A DNA stretch of 64,000 nucleotides. Source: Rhypophila decipiens. Taxonomy: Eukaryota; Ascomycota; Sordariomycetes; Sordariales; Naviculisporaceae. The notes beneath the pieces are model-generated. The model worked only from the letters and a program-made list of their open reading frames with translations, searched no databases and had not been told where the DNA came from. Made by a program: the position numbers and the translations under genes. The stretch's first letter is position 1. The number at the start of each line of letters is the position of its first letter. The DNA lies in NCBI GenBank assembly GCA_033297075.1, contig MU858051.1, positions 647,186 through 711,185 on the forward strand. The letters are read 5' to 3'. This document shows positions 14,347 through 31,236 of this stretch, in pieces.

Positions 14347-17149
14347 TCAAACACCCTTCTCAGGATCAATCTCCATCTGTCCCATACCCCTAGGTGTCCT
14401 CCCATCCACAATAACGCCCTCTCCAAGATCCTCCCTCCGTTTGGAACCACGGAACCGCATCCCGAGCCCGCCCCGGGACCCCTGGAATCCACTAAAAGGC
14501 CAAATACCCGGCTGCTGGCCTGCTTTTCTTCCTGTCGTCTGGCGCCGCTCCTTGTTGCGCTGCCTGACCTCGAACGCCTGATATAATTTGTAGAGAGCCC
14601 ACATTAGTACGCAGAGACCGGCGGTACCGAGAGTTGCGAAGCCTGTGTTTATTTTGTTAGTGAGACGGAAAGACGGTATGGTACCTGAACATGGAAGACT
14701 TACCAAAGACCTTTGCGAGGGGTGAAGCGTCCCAAGACTCGGGGAAGCCGGCGACCGGCATAGCGAGGATACCGCAGACCAACGAGAGCGGCGAGAACAG
14801 GACCGTGACGGTCGTGAAGATAAACAGCATAGTGGACTGCTCACCCTGGTTTAATGTGTCCTCAATGGCTGCTTCCCGCTGACGGAGGTCAAGAATCGTG
14901 ACCGCCATGGCTCGGACCCTCTCGGCCTCTGTCTCGAGCTGTTCAAACACCTCAAAAGCGGGAAACTTCTCCTCCAGACCCCCAACTATCCATTCACGGT
15001 CTGGCCAGACCACCCGCCGAAACATGTCAATCGTCCTAGTCTGATTCCGAAGAATGCGCTTGATCATGTTGATTTCGGCAATGTTGTCATCGGCATTGAT
15101 GAGAATTTTAGTCTCCTCTTTGACCTCACGGTAGAATTCGGTTGGGTCCTTGCTGATGGAACCCAGACCTTCCTTGAGCTTTTCGAACCGGTCGCAAAGT
15201 TGCATGTACATCTCCGCGATGGAATTTGCGTACCCCTTGCTATAGGTGACCTCGACATCGTGGAACTCTCTGGGATTTCGTGGGTTTGGGCATTTGGCAA
15301 ACGCCTTGGCCTCAAAGGAGAGGCAACTCTTCAGGATAGTGGCGGCGACATTGTCTGAGAAATTCGCTGTATAAATGTTGCCACAGTTGCTGTTTACGAG
15401 ACCGAGGACGTGGTCGTGAAGGCGTGATTCGTTCTCGTTGTCCCAGCGCTCGGGGTAAAGAGTGATGATGGTGTTGCTATCAATCTTGAACAGCCAGAAA
15501 TGCGGCACAGTAATGAGATCGTTATGTGCAACATCTTTGTCCTCCGCTGACCCCAGGTCGTTGGATATCTTTTCTTTGGAACTATTGGTCCTGAGTCGAC
15601 CGATGTAGCGCGCCAGGACCTGATCGTGGTCTAGCCTCTGAATCTTGTCATTGTCGAGGTACTCATGGTAGGACTGATCCAAGCTCCGTGGGAGAGGGTG
15701 GTTGAACAAGGTGCTCAGCTGCATCATGTTTTTCAGGTGCGGGTCGTCAGGATCGCTGTGATGAGTTCGGGCGAGATGGAGGTAGCCCTGTTTGTCCACA
15801 TCGATGATGGGAAGTACGACGGCATACATCTCGTCTTTGCCGAGGTCGCAATGGTCTGACCATTCTCGCTGCGTGCCCGAAACTTGTCAGTTACCCAAGA
15901 GAACTTTCCGCAATAATTGACGAGCATGAGAGGGTCAACTTACATCGAAATGATGCTTTCTTATCGGACCTTCGTGATCCACGTCCTTGAATACCTCGGC
16001 CATGTACCTGCAAATGTCCTTACTTTGCTCACCCGTGCACCCTGATCTCTCGGCACATATGTTTCTGGCCAGGTCCTTTGCCCAGTCTATGCTGGTGGCC
16101 GACAAATGAAACCACTTTTTCCCGGCGCCTCTCCTTCTAACCGCTTCGTCTCCGTCGTCATACACCAGATCCCACACAGATCCATGTGTCCACATGGGGT
16201 CCCCATTGGGCTCCCAAAAGCTGCCCTGGAACGCCTCGCACAGCTTCTTTTGCATGCCCTGGGGAGGGGGCGCTGGCGTAGCAGCGTCTTCATCGTCCAA
16301 GTCCTCTGACCCAAGTCTACTTTCATCGTCCTCCTCTCCTTCCTGCTCCCAGTCGGCGACCTTCCCCTCCCAGGAAGGATTATACGTCTTGGCCTGAGCC
16401 TTCTCTACCGAAGCTGTCGTGAACACTACCTCGGGCACTGAGCTGACCGAACGGATGTTTGGCTCGTCAACCGCTTGAATGGACTGCACCGTCATTTCCG
16501 GCACCGAAGAGGTAACTGCACCACCATTCTCCTCCTCCTCGTCACTCACACGAACCGCAGAGCAAGCTTCAAATTCGACTTCAGATCTGTTTTCCTTCCC
16601 TTTCCCTTTCTTCTTCCCACCACCGCCTCGTTTGACCACCCTAGGCGGATTATCAAACAAATCCCTCATCTCCTGTCCTTCCTTCCCCTTGGGAACATAC
16701 CACCTCGCCAGATGGCCTTTATCATCCACCAGTTGCGCATCCGCCCCGGCCCTCAACAATCGTTCAACACATTTCCTCGACCCATTCGCCACAGCCAAAT
16801 GCAGCGCCGTCTGTTTACTGGAATCCACAGCGTCAATATCAACTTCCTTCCGCGTAATCAGCATGTCCAGCGCCGCCGTGCGGCTCAGTTCAGCCGCCGT
16901 GTGAAGCGGAGTGCGGCCATTTTCGTCACGGGCTAAGGCAGCGTGTGGACTTTTACTGAGGAAAGACTGGAGGGCGGTGGTGTCGGGGTCAGCGCTTTTT
17001 AGAATAGATTGAATGGTTGAGGCAAGCTCTGTGCGCCGGGTTTGCTCTGCTTGGGCTTCGCGCTGGTAGGAACCGGATAGGCGCGACGTGGTGAGGTCGG
17101 TGTCGGAGGGGCGGCGGGGGGCGGCGGCTGATGAACGAAGGAGGTCCAT
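14347..17149 (-). CDS. Ankyrin-repeat protein with C-terminal CorA-like membrane domain
   Basis: Three exons (15944-17149, 14704-15868, 14347-14642), 888 residues. Residues about 60-145 form two to three ankyrin repeats (N-G-R-T-P-L-H-T-A-A, Q-T-A-L-H-L-A-V). A charged, low-complexity linker (K-K-K-G-K-G-K, E-E-E-D-D-E-S) leads to a helical domain typical of fungal CorA-like proteins, ending in two membrane spans at about 749-774 and 792-813. The canonical G-M-N selectivity motif of bacterial CorA is absent; the loop after the first span reads A-M-P-V-A-G-F. Fungal ankyrin-CorA fusions of this kind are common, and their transport activity is untested for most. The C-terminal tail is basic and Gly/Arg-rich. 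Both introns keep frame and restore H-H-F-D-R-E-W-S-D-H and K-V-F-G-F-A-T-L. Confidence 0.85.
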
Positions 17150-17598: not shown

Positions 17599-20234
17599 TC
17601 ACTTCCATGATAACGCAGCCGCTGATGGAAGTTCTACCGCATCGAAGAACTCATCGTCATCACTGTCGCCTACCCAGCCACCGGTGGACTGGTTTCCCTC
17701 GAGTCCCCCAGTCCCGTACAGATTGTGAGCCGTTGCAGCTGCATCGATATTCTGGTTGACACTTGCCAATAACGCCCCCCATGCCTTGACAAGCTTTCCA
17801 GTCTCCTCGTCCTCGCCAGATCCGCTGTACAGATCAACACGTCTCCTGAAAACATCCACAGCTGTCTGGCCATAGCAGTCTCCAAAGTCCTCAGGATCAG
17901 GCAAACCTGTCATTTTGATACTCGCGAATAACTCCATCATCTCTTTGTCCCCATGATTGGCAAGGTGATGTAAAATGCTCCAACCCCGTGATCCATTTAT
18001 CATTCGGTATCTCTCATGCACCATCATCACCCCCTGCCTGTTACGTGTCGGTTCATCTATGCTGCTGCTGATGCCCAAAAGCGGTCTTACAGAGCCGTGC
18101 GAGCCAACCTCGATAGCGATATGCAGCGCCGTATCACCATCCTCGTCCATAACATTGATGTCGGCCCCGCGGGCGATCAAGAGCCTGACTCCATCGATGT
18201 TATCATACATGACTGCCTTTATGAGCGCTGTGCACCCGTGGTAGTCTACAGCGTCCATATCCAGGCCCAGTCCATGTTCGTTGTCGAGAAGGATATCGAC
18301 CAGCCCGGTCAGATTAGCGTACTCCCGCTTAACCCTCATGGCATCATGTAATGGAGTCATTTCCAACGTGCCGCGGTTGGTAGTACCAAGGCTCCGTGAA
18401 GCCCCCGCCGAGATCAAGGCCCTGACGCTCGAACCGTTTCCTGCGCCCTTACACGCCCAGATCAGCGGAGTCGACCCGTCCCCGCCAAACATGCTGTTTG
18501 GATTGGCGCCGGCTTCGAGAAGCAGCCTGACCTCTCTATCTCCAGGGCAGATCCGGGCGGCCAGGTGGAGCGGTGTAATGCCGTTTGCAGTCCTGCTGTT
18601 AACCTGGTTCCGGAATGTTGGGCTCATTAGCGCTACACCGAGGTCTAGCGGGAGGACACCGGTGATTATACGATGCAAGTCGCTGTAGTCGTCTTCTTGG
18701 TAGAGTCGGGCAATGGGCATCACCTCGGCTATTCTCTGAGCAGCGGAATCACGAGTGGAATTGGATTGTTGTAGAGAACAAAGTAGGGCGTGCTGCGCTG
18801 GACTTGTCTTCATGGTGTTTTGCTGAAAGGGGTCGGCGCCGGCTTGGAGGAGCAGTTGGACCATTGATGCGTTTTGGGAATTGACTGCGTACATCAGGGC
18901 CGAGTTCTGAGTTTCACCGAGCATGTCGTGCACTGATGACGGGCAGGAAATTAGTAGGCCTCGGACGGCTCGTATGTCCTTGGTTATGACTTTGCCCAAG
19001 ATGCTTTGTGAGTATAGCTTTGGATCGATGAGGCGATGGATGCGGATGAGGAGTTCGGGGTGGATGTGCCGCAAGAAGTACAGTGATATGATTGATGTTC
19101 CTAACCAAGATGGAAGCCCGTATTGGATTACGGCCCGAGTATATTGCTGCGCGGTGTTATGCTCTTTGCAACGCGGGGACCGGCAGAGAACCGGGGGATT
19201 GTGGGTTGGGCTGGAGTAGGAGACCTTCAATGCACCTAGGAGAGGCTCAAGAAATGAGAACTCCCACCTGCTGTTGTACCTTGTGATGGCAGCATGACAG
19301 GTACAGGAGTAAACTGGCTCCCAGTCAGCCCCAGCCCCAATCCCAAGGCTGTTGGGACTAAGAGCCGGTCCGGGAAATGCCGATTTTATGCCACTATCAT
19401 GCCGAATCGTACTTTCGTGGATGGGATGATTGGGATTGGCTTCATGTTGTAGACCGCCCCGGTACACTGATGACAAGCCGTTCTCAAGGCTTGAGGACAT
19501 GCCGGGCTGTGCCTCTTCCAATTGTCGAGTTATACGGGACCGCATGGTTTGTTCAAGTGGCATCCCCAATTCTTCCTTGGACGACTCCAACGCGTCCGTC
19601 ACGCCTGTGATGATACTGGCTTCGGCTTGCTGCAGCAACGCTCTATTCGAAGTACCCTGCGCGGCCATAAGAGTGATCTGTCTATGTAATTCCATCAGCG
19701 CGAGTGGGAAAAGATTGTGCATAGCCAAGCACATAACAGGATGAGCAAACCAACAAGTACTTACACGTTGAGCATTATCAGACAGAGGGCTATGTTATCT
19801 GTCGTCCTCGAAAGCATCTTTCTCAGGTTGGACACGTCATCCATGCGCCTCAGCCAGAGCATCCTTTTGCGCAAACCAAGTCGTGCTTGGGAGCTCGTTC
19901 CGCCTCTTGTACCAGCATTTCCTGCTTGGTTCCCAATGAGCTCAACCAGAATACATCCTAAGCTGTGGGTGATACTCGCACCTCTTTCCAGCAGAAGCCC
20001 GAGTTGTTCGCGTTGCGCCTCCACAAACTCCTGACCGAGGGGAAGGTCACTGAGAGCTGAGGACTCGACGATCGCGGTTTGAATGGAAACGAAGAATGTC
20101 TGGCAGGTGTCAAGCTGGTCGCGAAGAAAAAAGACATCTCGTGGTGCATCTTTCCAAGTCATACACAGCTGGCGGGCATGCAAGGTGGTTGCCGTAGTGG
20201 CCCGGACAAGGGCAATAATTCCAGCTGCTTCCAT
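17599..20234 (-). CDS. Ankyrin-repeat protein with fungal STAND-type N-terminal domain
   Basis: Two exons, 19765-20234 and 17599-19681, joined over an 83-nt intron; 850 residues. I chose the ATG at 20232-20234 because M-E-A-A-G-I-I-A-L-V is how the fungal N-terminal helical domain of NLR/STAND-like proteins starts; an upstream in-frame start at 20297 would add 21 residues. That domain (about 1-155) is followed by a linker, with no NACHT or NB-ARC P-loop seen. From about 420 on come ankyrin repeats (N-S-A-L-M-Y-A-V, G-I-T-P-L-H-L-A-A-R, G-C-T-A-L-I-K-A-V, G-D-T-A-L-H-I-A-I). It may act in self/non-self or immunity-like recognition, as this architecture often does, but that is inference. Confidence 0.8.
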
Positions 20235-20841: not shown

Positions 20842-22835
20842 CTAAAGGTCGACCTCTGAGACTTCACTTGTCTTTGTCACGGTCCCTTCATGTTCATGCC
20901 CTAAGCTCCTACTTTCCTCTACCATCGCCCTCCCCCTTGCCAAAACAACATCGCCCAACTCCGTCTTAGGCGCGATATACGGCCTCACTTTCTCCCTAAC
21001 CAAGGTCCTCTGCTCAAAAGCATACGCCAAACCAATAAGTTTCTCCTCACTAAACCGCTCCGCAAGAAAGCTTATCCCAAACGGCATATTGGGCCCCCTG
21101 ATCACCAAGTTTCCAAGCCCATTCATCTTGACGGGTGTGTCACTCGGGTATCTTCCCATGGGCACCGAAATCACCGGAGACCCAAGCCTCGCAGGCAATG
21201 ACGACTCAAATATACTAGGAACCACCAGCGCGTCAAGGGTGTAGTTTTCCAGGGCGCCTGTAATACCAAGTCTTCCTGAAAGGTCGAGTTGAGAGGTGTA
21301 ATTACCCCATAGCTCGGCCGACAGCGACGAAGTGCCGTTGGCCGTGAGATTCAATGCGCCTTCCCATCGTTGAATATCTCTCTGTGGCCATTCCTCCGAG
21401 GCGTGGGTTTGGGTGAACCGCTTCATATCGAGAAGGGAGGTGATGTTGTGCGGGTTGTGGGACAATTTGGAGAAGTACGACTTGAGATTGGCGACAAAGT
21501 CTATTTCTATGACGTTGGTCTCGTACCATCGGCCTCGGTTCTCGGGATCATAGCCTGGGAGGTTGATCGCGTCGACGATTGTTGCGCCAGCTTCGCGTAG
21601 GACATCCAGGGACTCGTTGAACGACGCTAGTATGGGACTGTACTCGGATGATGTATCTATCAGGTTGCGAGGGACCCCAATGCGTTTGCCTTTGAGGGCG
21701 GAAAAGTCACATGCTGAGACGTAGTCTGGGATCTTGTTTGTTTCGAAGGGGATGGATGATGTGTAATTGTCGTTGATGTCCTGGCCGGCAATTGCCGAGA
21801 GCATGTAAGCGGCATCTTTGACAGTCCTTGCCATTGGCCCAATCGTGTCTTGATGCTCTGAAATGGGAATGACTAGATGCCGCGACGTCAGTCCGACAGT
21901 AGGTTTAATGCCCACGATGTTGTTATGGTCTGCGGGGGAGATGATGGAACCATCAGTCTCGGTGCCGACAGTTGCTGCGGCAAGACCGAGCGACGCCGCC
22001 ACGCCACTACCAGAAGACGAGCCAGAGGCATCCTGTTGGGGATAGTAAGCACCTTCGACTTGACCTCCATGCGATGACCAGCCATTACTGGAATTGGAAC
22101 TCCGGTAGTTTGCCCATTGGGATAAGTTTGCCTTGCCGAAGATTATAGCCCCAGCCATTCGCAGCTTTGCGGCTATCGTACTATCCTCGGGCACCTTTGC
22201 TCCGAGCAAAGAGTACGAGCCAGCAGTGTTGTTCATTTTGTCCAAGGTGGCGATGTTGTTCTTGATGAGAATCGGAATACCATGTAACGGGCCGTGTACA
22301 GTGCCGGAAGCCCGGCTAGCATCCAGGGCGGCGGCGATTTCGAGGGCATCGGGGTTGATCTCCGTGACTGCCTTGAGAATCGAGTTGACTTCTTCGATGC
22401 GGGCAGTGTATACGGTTACCAAGTCCACGCTGGTGAAAAGACCAGACTCCAATCCGGCAGCCAGGTCCTCGATGCTGGCGTCGATCAACGAGGGAAATGA
22501 CTACTGGCGGCGTTAGCAACGGCGCACATTGCAGGAATGGCAAGAACTGGGTCGACACATACCCCAAGTTCAGTTGAACCAAGTATCGTGCCTTCCTGGG
22601 CAAAGCTGGAAAATAAGAATTGTTCATGTGCGAGTTCGCAAGCCTCCGATACGAATATGTAGACGCCGACCAGGCTCAGTATGAAGATAGAGAGACGGTT
22701 CAACATGACGCGACGTTTCCAGCTTTGCACTTGAGAGTCTGGCCTTTCTTCGAGACGATGGTTGGAGGGGAAGACCGTTGGGAGATCCATTTCGGTTTTA
22801 TTCTCGTGCGGTTCGCAATGGGTTATCTCCGGCAT
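20842..22835 (-). CDS. Amidase-signature hydrolase with N-terminal membrane anchor
   Basis: Two exons, 22563-22835 and 20842-22500, joined over a 62-nt intron (GTATGT ... GTAG), 643 residues. The N-terminus is cytosolic and charged, with one hydrophobic segment at about 47-63 preceded by K-R-R (signal anchor, type II). The catalytic domain shows the amidase-signature triad: Lys in L-I-K-N-N-I-A-T, the cis-Ser in the G-S-S-S-G-S-G-V-A-A-S stretch, and the nucleophile Ser in T-E-T-D-G-S-I-I. Length and order match fungal amidase-signature enzymes that cleave carboxamides. Several N-x-S/T sites in the catalytic part fit a lumenal or extracellular location. The substrate is unknown. The first exon was found by splice logic: the frame at 22488 has no ATG of its own. 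Confidence 0.88.
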
Positions 22836-23352: not shown

Positions 23353-23526
23353 TTACTGAATAAGACACTTGTTGGGCAAGCCACAAGGCCCACTCTTGTC
23401 CTTCTTGGCCGGACTTTCCCTTGGCTCATCCTTCTTTGCTCCGTTCGTCCCCGCCGCAGCTCGGTCGGCCGCCGGAGTTGGCTCCGTTACAGCCGCAGCA
23501 TGTGCACCCTCACTGCTATCTTCTAG
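23353..23526 (-). other. In-frame readthrough extension of the WrbA-type gene, ending in a CaaX box
   Basis: Directly after the TGA at 23527-23529 the same frame continues for 57 sense codons to TAA at 23353-23355. The first two codons are CTA GAA, so the stop context is TGA CTA G. The extension is Ala/Glu/Lys/Pro-rich (low-complexity tail with A-K-K-D-E-P-R-E-S-P-A-K-K-D-K) and ends P-C-G-L-P-N-K-C-L-I-Q. The last four residues form a CaaX prenylation motif (C-L-I-Q), with a second cysteine six residues upstream that could be palmitoylated. An untranslated 3' UTR would not be expected to keep 57 open codons with this ordered ending. Confidence 0.75.
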
Positions 23527-24263
23527 TCACGCACCAGTCCCCTTGGCCACAGCCTTGTAGAACCACTCGCCCTGGATCGTCGCCAGTTCCTTCTCCTTCT
23601 CAGTAGGTTGTCTGCTGCCGTCGGGACCGGCAAAAGTGCCAGCGCCCCAAGGGCTGCCGCCGTGGATCTCGGTCAAGTCGGTCTGGAGCGCAAATGACTT
23701 GGCATAGCCGAGAGGGACGTAGATGATGCCGTGGTGGGCGAGGGTGCTCATGGCCGCAATGGCTGTTGACTCCTGCCCGCCACCCAAGCTGGCGGTAGAG
23801 ATGAAGACGCCAGCGTACTTGCCCCAGAAGCCTCCCGTCGACCATTGCTTGCCAGTCTTGTCCCAGAATGTCTTCCATTGTGCGGGAAAGTTGCCATAAC
23901 GTGTCGGGATGCCAAGCAGAAAGCCGTCGTAGGCCTCGAGTGTGGTAGGGTCCTCGAGCACGGGAATGTCTGTGGGCTTGGGGGGCGCGTGCATCTTGGC
24001 GAGCACATCACCGGGGAGGGTCTCTGGGATTCTGTCATGCCATTGTCAGTTCTGCTTGGCATCTCTAGCTGGGTCTTGAATAACATACTGGAAGATATCG
24101 GCGGTGCCGCCAGCCTTCTCGATGCCGGCCTTTTCTGCCTCGGCGAGCTGCTTGATGTGCCCGTACATCGAGTACTGACCAATGCGTGTTAGTTGCCATG
24201 TTTCCTGAGGATTGGGAGCCGTCAGGTGTGACGTACATAGACGATAGCAATCTTGGGAGCCAT
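23527..24263 (-). CDS. WrbA/Pst2-type flavodoxin, NAD(P)H:quinone oxidoreductase
   Basis: Three exons (24237-24263, 24089-24174, 23527-24031), 205 residues to the first stop. It starts [17 protein letters not shown], the FMN phosphate-binding loop; then [25 protein letters not shown] and [11 protein letters not shown], all standard for the family (fungal members include the Alternaria minor allergen Alt a 7 and yeast Pst2/Rfs1/Ycp4). These enzymes reduce quinones by two electrons and guard against oxidative stress, often at eisosomes or the plasma membrane. Both introns are short (62 and 57 nt) and phase-consistent. The stop is TGA followed by CTA G, and a conserved-looking 57-codon extension follows in frame; see the separate entry. 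Confidence 0.93.
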
Positions 24264-29577: not shown

Positions 29578-31236
29578 CTACCTCGACGCGCTGCCCGTCG
29601 CTGGGTCAATCACAATCTGCGGTAACCGAAGTTCAGGCAGCCTCATTGGCGTCCCCGGCACAGCAGGCGACGGCATGGGCGAATTTCCCCGCGACCGCGC
29701 GGCCGAAAGCTGCGAAACCACCATCCCTTCCATCTGTGCCGACAACCTGTTATTCCGTATCCTCCCGGCCCCCGAGTTCCCACTTCCACCAGGATACTCC
29801 GGCGGCGGGTCATCGTACGGGCTATTCCTCCCCGATCTCGCAGGCGTAATATCGCCCAAGCTGACGGTTTCATAATCCGGCGGTGGAGGCATATTCAAAT
29901 CTCCCGAATCACCACTTCCCCTTCCATCGGCCTCAAACGAGTCAATCATCTCGGGACTCGACCCAGCGCGGGGCGTGTTCAGTCCCGAGCGGGAGTGCGA
30001 ATTGGAGCGTATCCTCCCCATCCCCAGACCGCCAGTGCTGCTCGCCAGACTAAAGGTACTGCTCCCTGCGCCGCCCGTGAATATAGATGGCGACTCGGGG
30101 GCCAGGTCCCCGTTACTCCTAGCCGTATCGATCGAGATAATCGACTCGGACGACCGATCTCTTCTGTGCTGAAGACCATTATCCCCAGCCGCTGCAGAAC
30201 CCGAACGCGCCCTTTGCCCAATGCTCGCCGCGTCACTGAGCAATCCGACCCGTTCACTCTCGGTACTATTCGCCCTGATCCTCGTCCCATCCGCCCTAGC
30301 CACTCCCAGATCCGCATAACTCACGCTGCTCACGGCCCTTTGTCTCGCCGCCTCCCTGACACGCTCATGTTCAGCGCGCAAGTCTTCGATAGCCTCATTA
30401 TTCCTGCCCGCCGAATCCCTCGTCTGACGGCGCAAGTCCTGCAACGCAAGGATATCATTGTTTTCGCGGGCCTCGCGGCGCAGACGCCTCCGCTCTTCGC
30501 GCTCGGCGATCTGCTGTCGTCTTGTCAGGCGGATCTGGTACAACGCATTCATTTCCTCCTCCCGAAGGGCTTCTTCCTCCTCGGCGGTCGGCATCTCGAC
30601 GACTACATCAATACCGTCGCGCTCGCCCTCGCGACCGAGAACTTGTTCGTTTTCTGTCGGGCGGGGACGATACACTGGCAGAGTCATTACGCTCCGTACG
30701 GATGTGTTTCGGTCGACTCCTGCAGCGGCGTTATTGTTGGCCGTAGAGGCGCCGCGCTCGAGGGTCTGAGATGGGTAGGTGACGCTGGTATCTGGAGTTG
30801 TGCGGGTCTGTCGCCGAGAGAGGTCATCGTCGCCTACGCTGCTGCGGGTGGGTTCGTAGGCATGGCTGTTTCGCGCGGTTTTATAGTTTGGGACTTTCCA
30901 GTTGCTCCATGCTCGCTTCAGGAACGGCGTGGGTATGTATTTCGGGTTGGGGTGGCGGCTGCGGAGCGTGCGTACTCCAATGATTATGCCGAGAAGGAGG
31001 ACGATGCCGCCTACGACGCCTGCGATGGCCTTGCAAGCACGAAGGGGTGGTAAGTATTGGGTTCAAACAGGAGGTGCGTCGGCAAAGAGTCTTACAATTG
31101 TTGTCGGTTTTGGCTTGTCGGCTTCCCGCCGAGGTGATAATATGTGCGCTGCCGCGGATGCAGCCTCGAGGTTTGCGGGAGCCCGGTACGGTTGCCCTGG
31201 GACCGGGATTGGTATTCGAAAGAGAGGGCCAGGCAT
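29578..31236 (-). CDS. Single-pass membrane protein with coiled coil and two PPxY motifs
   Basis: Two exons, 31096-31236 and 29578-31029, 66-nt intron, 530 residues. The start ATG (31234-31236) is the first in the exon-1 frame; the frame is open further upstream but without another ATG. Residues 48-67 are one hydrophobic span (A-I-A-G-V-V-G-G-I-V-L-L-L-G), followed by basic residues, so the long C-terminal part is probably cytosolic. That part has a highly charged coiled coil (E-E-E-A-L-R-E-E-E, R-E-E-R-R-R-L-R-R-E), Ser/Gly-rich linkers, and two WW-domain ligands, P-P-D-Y (within about 428-434) and P-P-E-Y (about 456). Membrane proteins with PPxY motifs are often adaptors for Nedd4/Rsp5 ubiquitin ligases; here that is inference. 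No known family recognised. Confidence 0.75.

Follow-up and report, generated by a model that had tools for sequence, protein, structure and literature searches.

A candidate readthrough extension ending in a CaaX box behind the stop codon of a WrbA/Pst2-type quinone reductase gene of Rhypophila decipiens

A stretch of 64,000 nucleotides (nt) from Rhypophila decipiens (assembly GCA_033297075.1, contig MU858051.1, forward-strand positions 647,186 to 711,185; hereafter, the window) was analyzed around a gene for a WrbA/Pst2-type quinone reductase. The gene lies on the minus strand, and its first stop codon is followed in the same frame by an extension of 57 codons that closes on a CaaX box. An earlier note on this DNA had proposed that the stop is read through, and that a fraction of the enzyme thereby acquires a prenylated tail. 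Judging from the sequence, the tail is best explained as being accessed by readthrough at UGA CUA G, and we assign this reading a probability of roughly 0.55.

The gene model has three exons up to the first stop, and all of the features described for it are on the minus strand. Exon 1 (24237..24263) begins with an ATG at 24263 and encodes MAPKIAIVY, the same start as in the homologues. Intron 1 (24175..24236, 62 nt) reads GTACGT..CTAAC..CAG, and its removal restores the frame of the aligned homologues. It is followed by exon 2 (24089..24174), intron 2 (24032..24088, 57 nt, GTATGT..CTGAC..CAG), and exon 3, which reaches the first stop (23527..24031) and completes a short protein of 205 amino acids (aa). 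Both introns have good donors and CTAAC or CTGAC branch sites. The short protein matched the Pfam family FMN_red (PF03358) at 40.8 bits (cut-off 24), and its structure matches were yeast Pst2 (PDB 5mp4, E 5.1e-72) and WrbA (2r96, E 3.3e-47). By these matches, the gene product is a flavodoxin-like NAD(P)H:quinone oxidoreductase of the WrbA/Pst2 type, in agreement with the identity that had been proposed. Introns and closest proteins alike are fungal, and the best protein match is from Rhypophila, a member of the Sordariales.

The assembly searched for further copies comprised 45.7 Mb in 408 contigs. When the core of the protein was searched against it (E up to 1), the next-best match had an E of 0.007; no other clear gene of the WrbA/Pst2 type was found in the genome. 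A paralogue carrying its own tail was considered and rejected, as the tail matched one genomic place and the core had no second good match; FMN_red domains also occur on contigs C137, C70 and C53, and the ends of those genes were left unread, which limits this negative result.

The short open reading frame ends GCC AAG GGG ACT GGT GCG TGA (AKGTGA and stop) and continues CTA GAA GAT. The first stop, TGA, occupies 23527..23529, and the context TGA CTA G (23529-23523) is a published high-readthrough context. Behind it, the 57-codon extension (23356..23526) is delimited by its open frame and by homology; it consists of a linker rich in A, E, P and K and a lipidation motif, G-P-C-G-L-P-N-K-C-L-I-Q. 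The open codons end GPCGLPNKCLIQ, and the second stop, TAA, is at 23353..23355. The feature typical of Ycp4, a linker encoded in frame at the C-terminus and closed by a CaaX box, is therefore present in this gene, behind a stop. The arrangement described in the earlier note (AKGTGA, TGA CTA G, 57 open codons and a CLIQ end within 23353-23529) was matched exactly, as was the second Cys within CGLPNKC, upstream of CLIQ.

The CaaX box, CLIQ (23356..23367), is evident from the sequence and from the homologues; from its last residue, it would be of the farnesyltransferase type. The second Cys of GPCGLPNKC (23383..23385), six residues upstream of the CaaX Cys, presumably resembles the acylated Cys of Ras-type tails. 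It is invariant in 20 aligned long forms of the protein, and it is a possible site of S-acylation by comparison with Ycp4.

All in-frame stops in the six frames of the window were surveyed, using a CaaX-like pattern of our own definition. Seventeen of the 4,497 stops were TGA CTA, and 531 of the 4,497 were followed by an open frame of 57 codons or more. Among these 531 long extensions, four had a CaaX-like end and four followed TGA CTA; just one, that of the reductase gene, did both. Another stretch with a CaaX-like end was recorded on the plus strand at 30780-30980, where 66 open codons follow a TGA and end GGGCGACVLQ.

Homologues were gathered in two protein searches, one with the whole protein (the best 120 of 6,278 matches) and one with the alignment of 20 long forms (the best 120 of 6,224), the latter being biased towards long forms. 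Together, they furnished 148 different proteins, and the counts given here and below are those among the matches listed. Short forms of 203-207 aa accounted for 76 of the 148 and ended within a few residues of the position of the first stop of the reductase gene. Another 36 were 210-300 aa long, and 33 of these ended in G[PSA]CGLPxKC-xxx. The CaaX boxes of the 33 were CVVQ (18), CVIL (6), CTVQ (3) and CEVM (2), with CLIQ, CEIM, CVIM and CVVL occurring once each. The three proteins of this length without the motif were P0068, which stops within it, P0069 and P0119. The other 36 of the 148 were at least 388 aa long and lacked the C-terminal motif.

When the tail by itself was used as the query of a protein search, 76 candidates were scored and a single protein was retrieved, P0001 from the nearest relative, Rhypophila sp. 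PSN 637 (E 2.5e-21). Between the window gene and P0001, 4 of 205 positions differ in the core and 5 of 53 in the tail; there is neither a stop nor an indel except at the junction, and the CaaX box and both Cys are kept. The CaaX box and second Cys are thus conserved, as the earlier note had anticipated. We conclude from these comparisons that the tail is conserved coding sequence. A 3' untranslated region (UTR) open by chance, which the earlier note had deemed improbable, was rejected as the full explanation on the strength of the tail-only match and of the C-terminal motif of the homologues; it is homology that mainly rules out chance, and the stop counts do so to a lesser degree. Scans for the DNA of the gene in fungal relatives gave, from genome contigs, 80 kept loci that all bore bacterial titles and, from viral contigs, one weak locus.

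The listed relatives were examined for the manner in which they join core and tail. P0027, a 250-aa long form on a contig of ca. 1 kb, and P0067, a 205-aa short form from Podospora aff. communis, are identical over the core (192/192). They part at ..AKAFG-GIANG.. in P0027 vs. ..AKAFGA and stop in P0067. This is the pair expected if the last intron begins G|GTGCGTGA, since its retention yields GA and a stop and its removal yields G plus the tail exon. P0027 may accordingly be the product of a transcript, with the two proteins representing splice forms. The ends of the short forms fall at nearly one place (36 of the 76 end in GA and 17 in TG), and the long forms part from the short forms at that end or slightly before it. 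In Fusarium, VAKFTG and stop vs. VAN-SQAK (from different entries, not one strain) is compatible with a donor AA|GT. From such junctions, it appears that a terminal intron is spliced out in the relatives to add the tail, and that its retention would produce the short protein. Readthrough conserved throughout the Sordariomycetes is not supported, as the identical-core pair and the junction residues suit a retained intron better; on this point, the protein-level evidence departs from the conservation of the leaky stop that the earlier note had looked for in orthologues. That note had also named a spliced transcript removing the TGA as an outcome that would refute it. Such a transcript is suggested in the relatives, and it concerns them rather than the window gene.

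Among small, transcript-like contigs in the matches, 30 of 31 carried the short form and 1 of 31 the long form. The anchored form is thus seemingly rare and the short form the common one, as a readthrough model would have it, with the proviso that contig clusters do not measure numbers of molecules and that a form made by readthrough would not show as one frame. Fusarium long forms from different species (P0040/P0041 and P0130/P0131) have either S-QAK or QAK at the junction, a difference that could arise from a NAGNAG tandem acceptor or from a 3-nt indel. The window reads TAGCAG at 23513-23518, after the stop.

In the window gene, the last codons contain a good donor-like hexamer, GTGCGT (23529..23534; G|GTGCGTGA), which the junctions of the relatives would mark as the remnant of a terminal-intron donor. 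Scored with Fusarium frequencies, it reached 3.8 bits, compared with 4.7 for intron 1 and 3.6 for intron 2. In-frame donor/acceptor pairs of 12-250 nt spanning the stop were then enumerated (n = 136, 36 with GT), and branch motifs (CTRAY, TTRAY or CTHAH) were sought 6-45 nt before the acceptor. A branch motif was found in 0 of the 136. A YAG acceptor together with a length of at least 40 nt occurred in 20 of the 136, none of them with a positive donor score. A positive donor and a length of at least 40 nt coincided in two options only, of 75 and 96 nt, each of which depends on a GAG|C acceptor. For a donor at the stop, the YAG acceptors in the frame of the tail are 12-18 nt away, i.e. shorter than the 42-nt minimum of Fusarium introns (PMC5677156). 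The introns of Fusarium core genes are reported to span 42-529 nt, with YAG|R acceptors in 94% and CTRAY branch sites in 91% (PMC5677156). A canonical in-frame intron of spliceable size across the stop was therefore absent from the 136 options. The terminal intron seems to have collapsed in this gene, leaving the donor-like GTGCGTGA.

Alternative splicing could nevertheless operate through a weak or unusual site that removes the stop, the short protein being the intron-retained form as in the relatives. Examples would be the 75/96-nt options, which join G|GTGCGT with a GAG acceptor, and options of 51/54 nt, from GA|GTGGTT to TAG or CAG. This alternative draws on the two forms that the relatives apparently make by splicing (P0027 and P0067), on the intact GTGCGT with a score on a par with that of the intron 2 donor, and on the Fusarium long forms P0130, P0131 and P0133, whose junctions (IQGD-S-QAK or IQGD-QAK) coincide in codon position with the 51/54-nt option. 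Set against it are the want of a branch motif in every in-frame option, the GTGGTT donor at -6.1 bits, and the retention in P0001 of the very stretch that the 75/96-nt introns would cut out. Moreover, GAG|C belongs to the RAG|Y class of acceptors, which makes up 2.18% of Fusarium introns (PMC5677156). We regard splicing of this kind as unlikely in the window gene.

Since splicing is poorly supported, the ribosome is the likeliest route to the intact tail, and the first stop lies in a context known to be leaky. In Ustilago, a UGA needed no more than a following CUA to be read through (PMC4207609), a G after UGA CUA went, in an apparent correlation, with the strongest readthrough in human cells (PMC4359377), and UGA CUA G has been named a high-readthrough motif (PMC12233894). 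The literature therefore agrees with the description of this context in the earlier note (PMC4207609, PMC4359377).

A number of observations weigh against readthrough. The apparent route of the relatives is splicing. UGA CUA was found at 0 of 5 control-gene stops of the genome, namely gpd (TAA ACT), pgk (TAA ACC), rpe (TGA GGT) and two TIM-family genes (TAA TTA and TGA TTC); although this control is small, it leaves the genome without an independent sign of programmed readthrough. A stimulatory RNA structure was rejected, since folding after the stop did not stand out from that of shuffled sequences (z -0.89, equalled or surpassed by 38 of 200 shuffles). Residues of the tail change about five times faster than those of the core (5/53 vs. 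4/205). The codon score of the tail is -0.08 bits/codon vs. 0.51 for the core (which lies within the training set), the fraction of G and C at third codon positions (GC3) is 0.54 vs. 0.75, and the score of the tail frame is almost equalled by two reverse frames. About 14 of 2,000 shuffles reached the codon score of the tail, the shuffles being penalized for stops; by codons, then, the tail is weakly coding. Finally, P0001 lacks 15 nt of the form GT..AG, which could be called an intron or could be a true deletion there.

The rate of change, the weak codon statistics with low GC3, and the controls would also suit a relic: the intron has collapsed, the stop is constitutive, and the tail is now a slowly decaying, untranslated 3' region. 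A relic is harder to reconcile with 53 codons that have passed between two species with no indel or stop while the CaaX box and both Cys were kept, or with a stop that sits in a published leaky context of which the window has so few examples (TGA CTA, 17/4,497). We hold this account to be improbable.

The 15 nt in question are GTGACTAGAAGATAG (23516..23530), a GT..AG segment whose exact removal yields the tail junction of P0001; this database protein is without exactly the residues that the segment encodes. Were the gap an intron, a real micro-intron of 12-18 nt, such as GTGACTAGAAGATAG, would be spliced out. The exact junction and the GT and AG ends speak for it, whereas its donor scores -4.4 bits and it has no branch motif. 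Gene finders, moreover, insert small gaps to bridge stops. A functional micro-intron is thus very improbable, and we read the gap in P0001 as one that a gene finder introduced to get past the same stop, a true 15-nt deletion being the other possibility. The TGA could also stem from an error in the assembly or a mutation of this strain, in a gene whose tail is otherwise constitutive, and one assembly only was available. The exact gap in P0001 suggests that the same stop exists there, and 76 of the 148 listed homologues are 203-207-aa short forms that end within a few residues of it; we give this last explanation hardly any credence.

If readthrough is the route, the major product would be the soluble 205-aa protein, and a minority of ribosomes would decode the UGA in UGA CUA G to make a form of 263 residues. 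The tail of that form, a low-complexity linker ending GPCGLPNKC-LIQ, would receive a prenyl group on the CaaX Cys and perhaps an acyl group on the Cys upstream. The lipidated enzyme would then be membrane-bound, the plasma membrane being the probable site by analogy with yeast Ycp4. The earlier note's idea of soluble and lipid-anchored isoforms of one enzyme finds support. Relatives would obtain the same tail by alternative splicing of the terminal intron; in the lineage of R. decipiens, this intron probably became too short to be spliced and was superseded by readthrough. A more specific and only tentative proposal is an evolutionary switch in which the donor GTGCGTGA and the acceptor CTAG of the collapsed intron were fused into UGA CUA G, so that the ribosome, instead of the spliceosome, came to choose between the forms.

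Yeast Ycp4 belongs, with Pst1/2/3 and Rfs1, to the same flavodoxin-like enzyme family as the window gene. In Candida albicans, Ycp4 has an extension of ~90 aa that ends in a CAAX box, and it is located at the plasma membrane; the Candida family of flavodoxin-like proteins protects against lipid peroxidation (PMC4556627). Because the CAAX-bearing C. albicans protein sits at that membrane, the function of the tail may be to place part of the quinone reductase there. Ycp4 of S. cerevisiae is palmitoylated and is listed as a substrate of Erf2, which also acts on Ras (PMC7943015, PMC5364179). The yeast tail, however, is on a separate YCP4 gene, while in the window one gene would give both forms by way of a stop or an intron.

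The nearest mechanistic likeness is to the peroxisomal readthrough isoforms of the fungal and animal enzymes Tpi1, Rpe1, Art1, LDHB and MDH1, which share the UGA CU(A) context and the pairing of a short cytosolic enzyme with a minor extended form that bears a C-terminal targeting signal. Among these isoforms, species vary between readthrough, splicing and a constitutive signal (PMC4207609). They differ from the window gene in that their signal is a type 1 peroxisomal targeting signal (PTS1), as opposed to a CaaX box that closes an extension of 57 residues reached by predicted readthrough. The earlier note knew of no readthrough that gives a CaaX box; precedents exist, inasmuch as a farnesyltransferase signal is predicted in the readthrough extension of Drosophila Syx17 (PMC3840789, Table 2) and human readthrough extensions were screened for prenylation sites (PMC4359377). 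Syx17 is thus alike in having a prenylation-type signal in a readthrough extension and unlike in being another protein from another lineage, known by prediction only and with no link to splicing seen. In filamentous ascomycetes, the homologues known as Alt a 7 minor allergen/benzoquinone reductase are deposited in forms of 203-207 aa and of 241-266 aa; they differ from the window gene in that their tail is seemingly spliced on. No literature describing both of their forms was found in the searches made. Nor did open-access literature, a scope that makes for a weak negative, join readthrough with a CaaX box for this reductase family. The gene brings together known parts (a Ycp4-type tail and a leaky stop) in a combination that was not found described in the searches made, save for the predicted Syx17 case and the human screen.

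Were the switch reading true, this would be the first fungal prenylated isoform made by readthrough, as far as the literature searches show. If the gene is indeed read through, leaky termination in fungi would extend beyond peroxisomal signals to the rationing of a lipid anchor, termination efficiency could set the amount of antioxidant enzyme at the membrane, and splicing and readthrough would be seen to replace one another at a single site within a gene. Gene models may hide such cases, as P0001 seemingly bridges the stop with a 15-nt "intron"; bridges of this size in fungal annotation could be mined as signposts of hidden readthrough genes.

Directly downstream of the reductase gene, and also on the minus strand, is an amidase gene (20842-22488; PF01425, E 2.4e-71). 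Its listed frame starts with TTG, which makes an upstream exon likely. Two adjoining ankyrin-repeat proteins are encoded on the same strand at 15935-17149 and 17599-19734.
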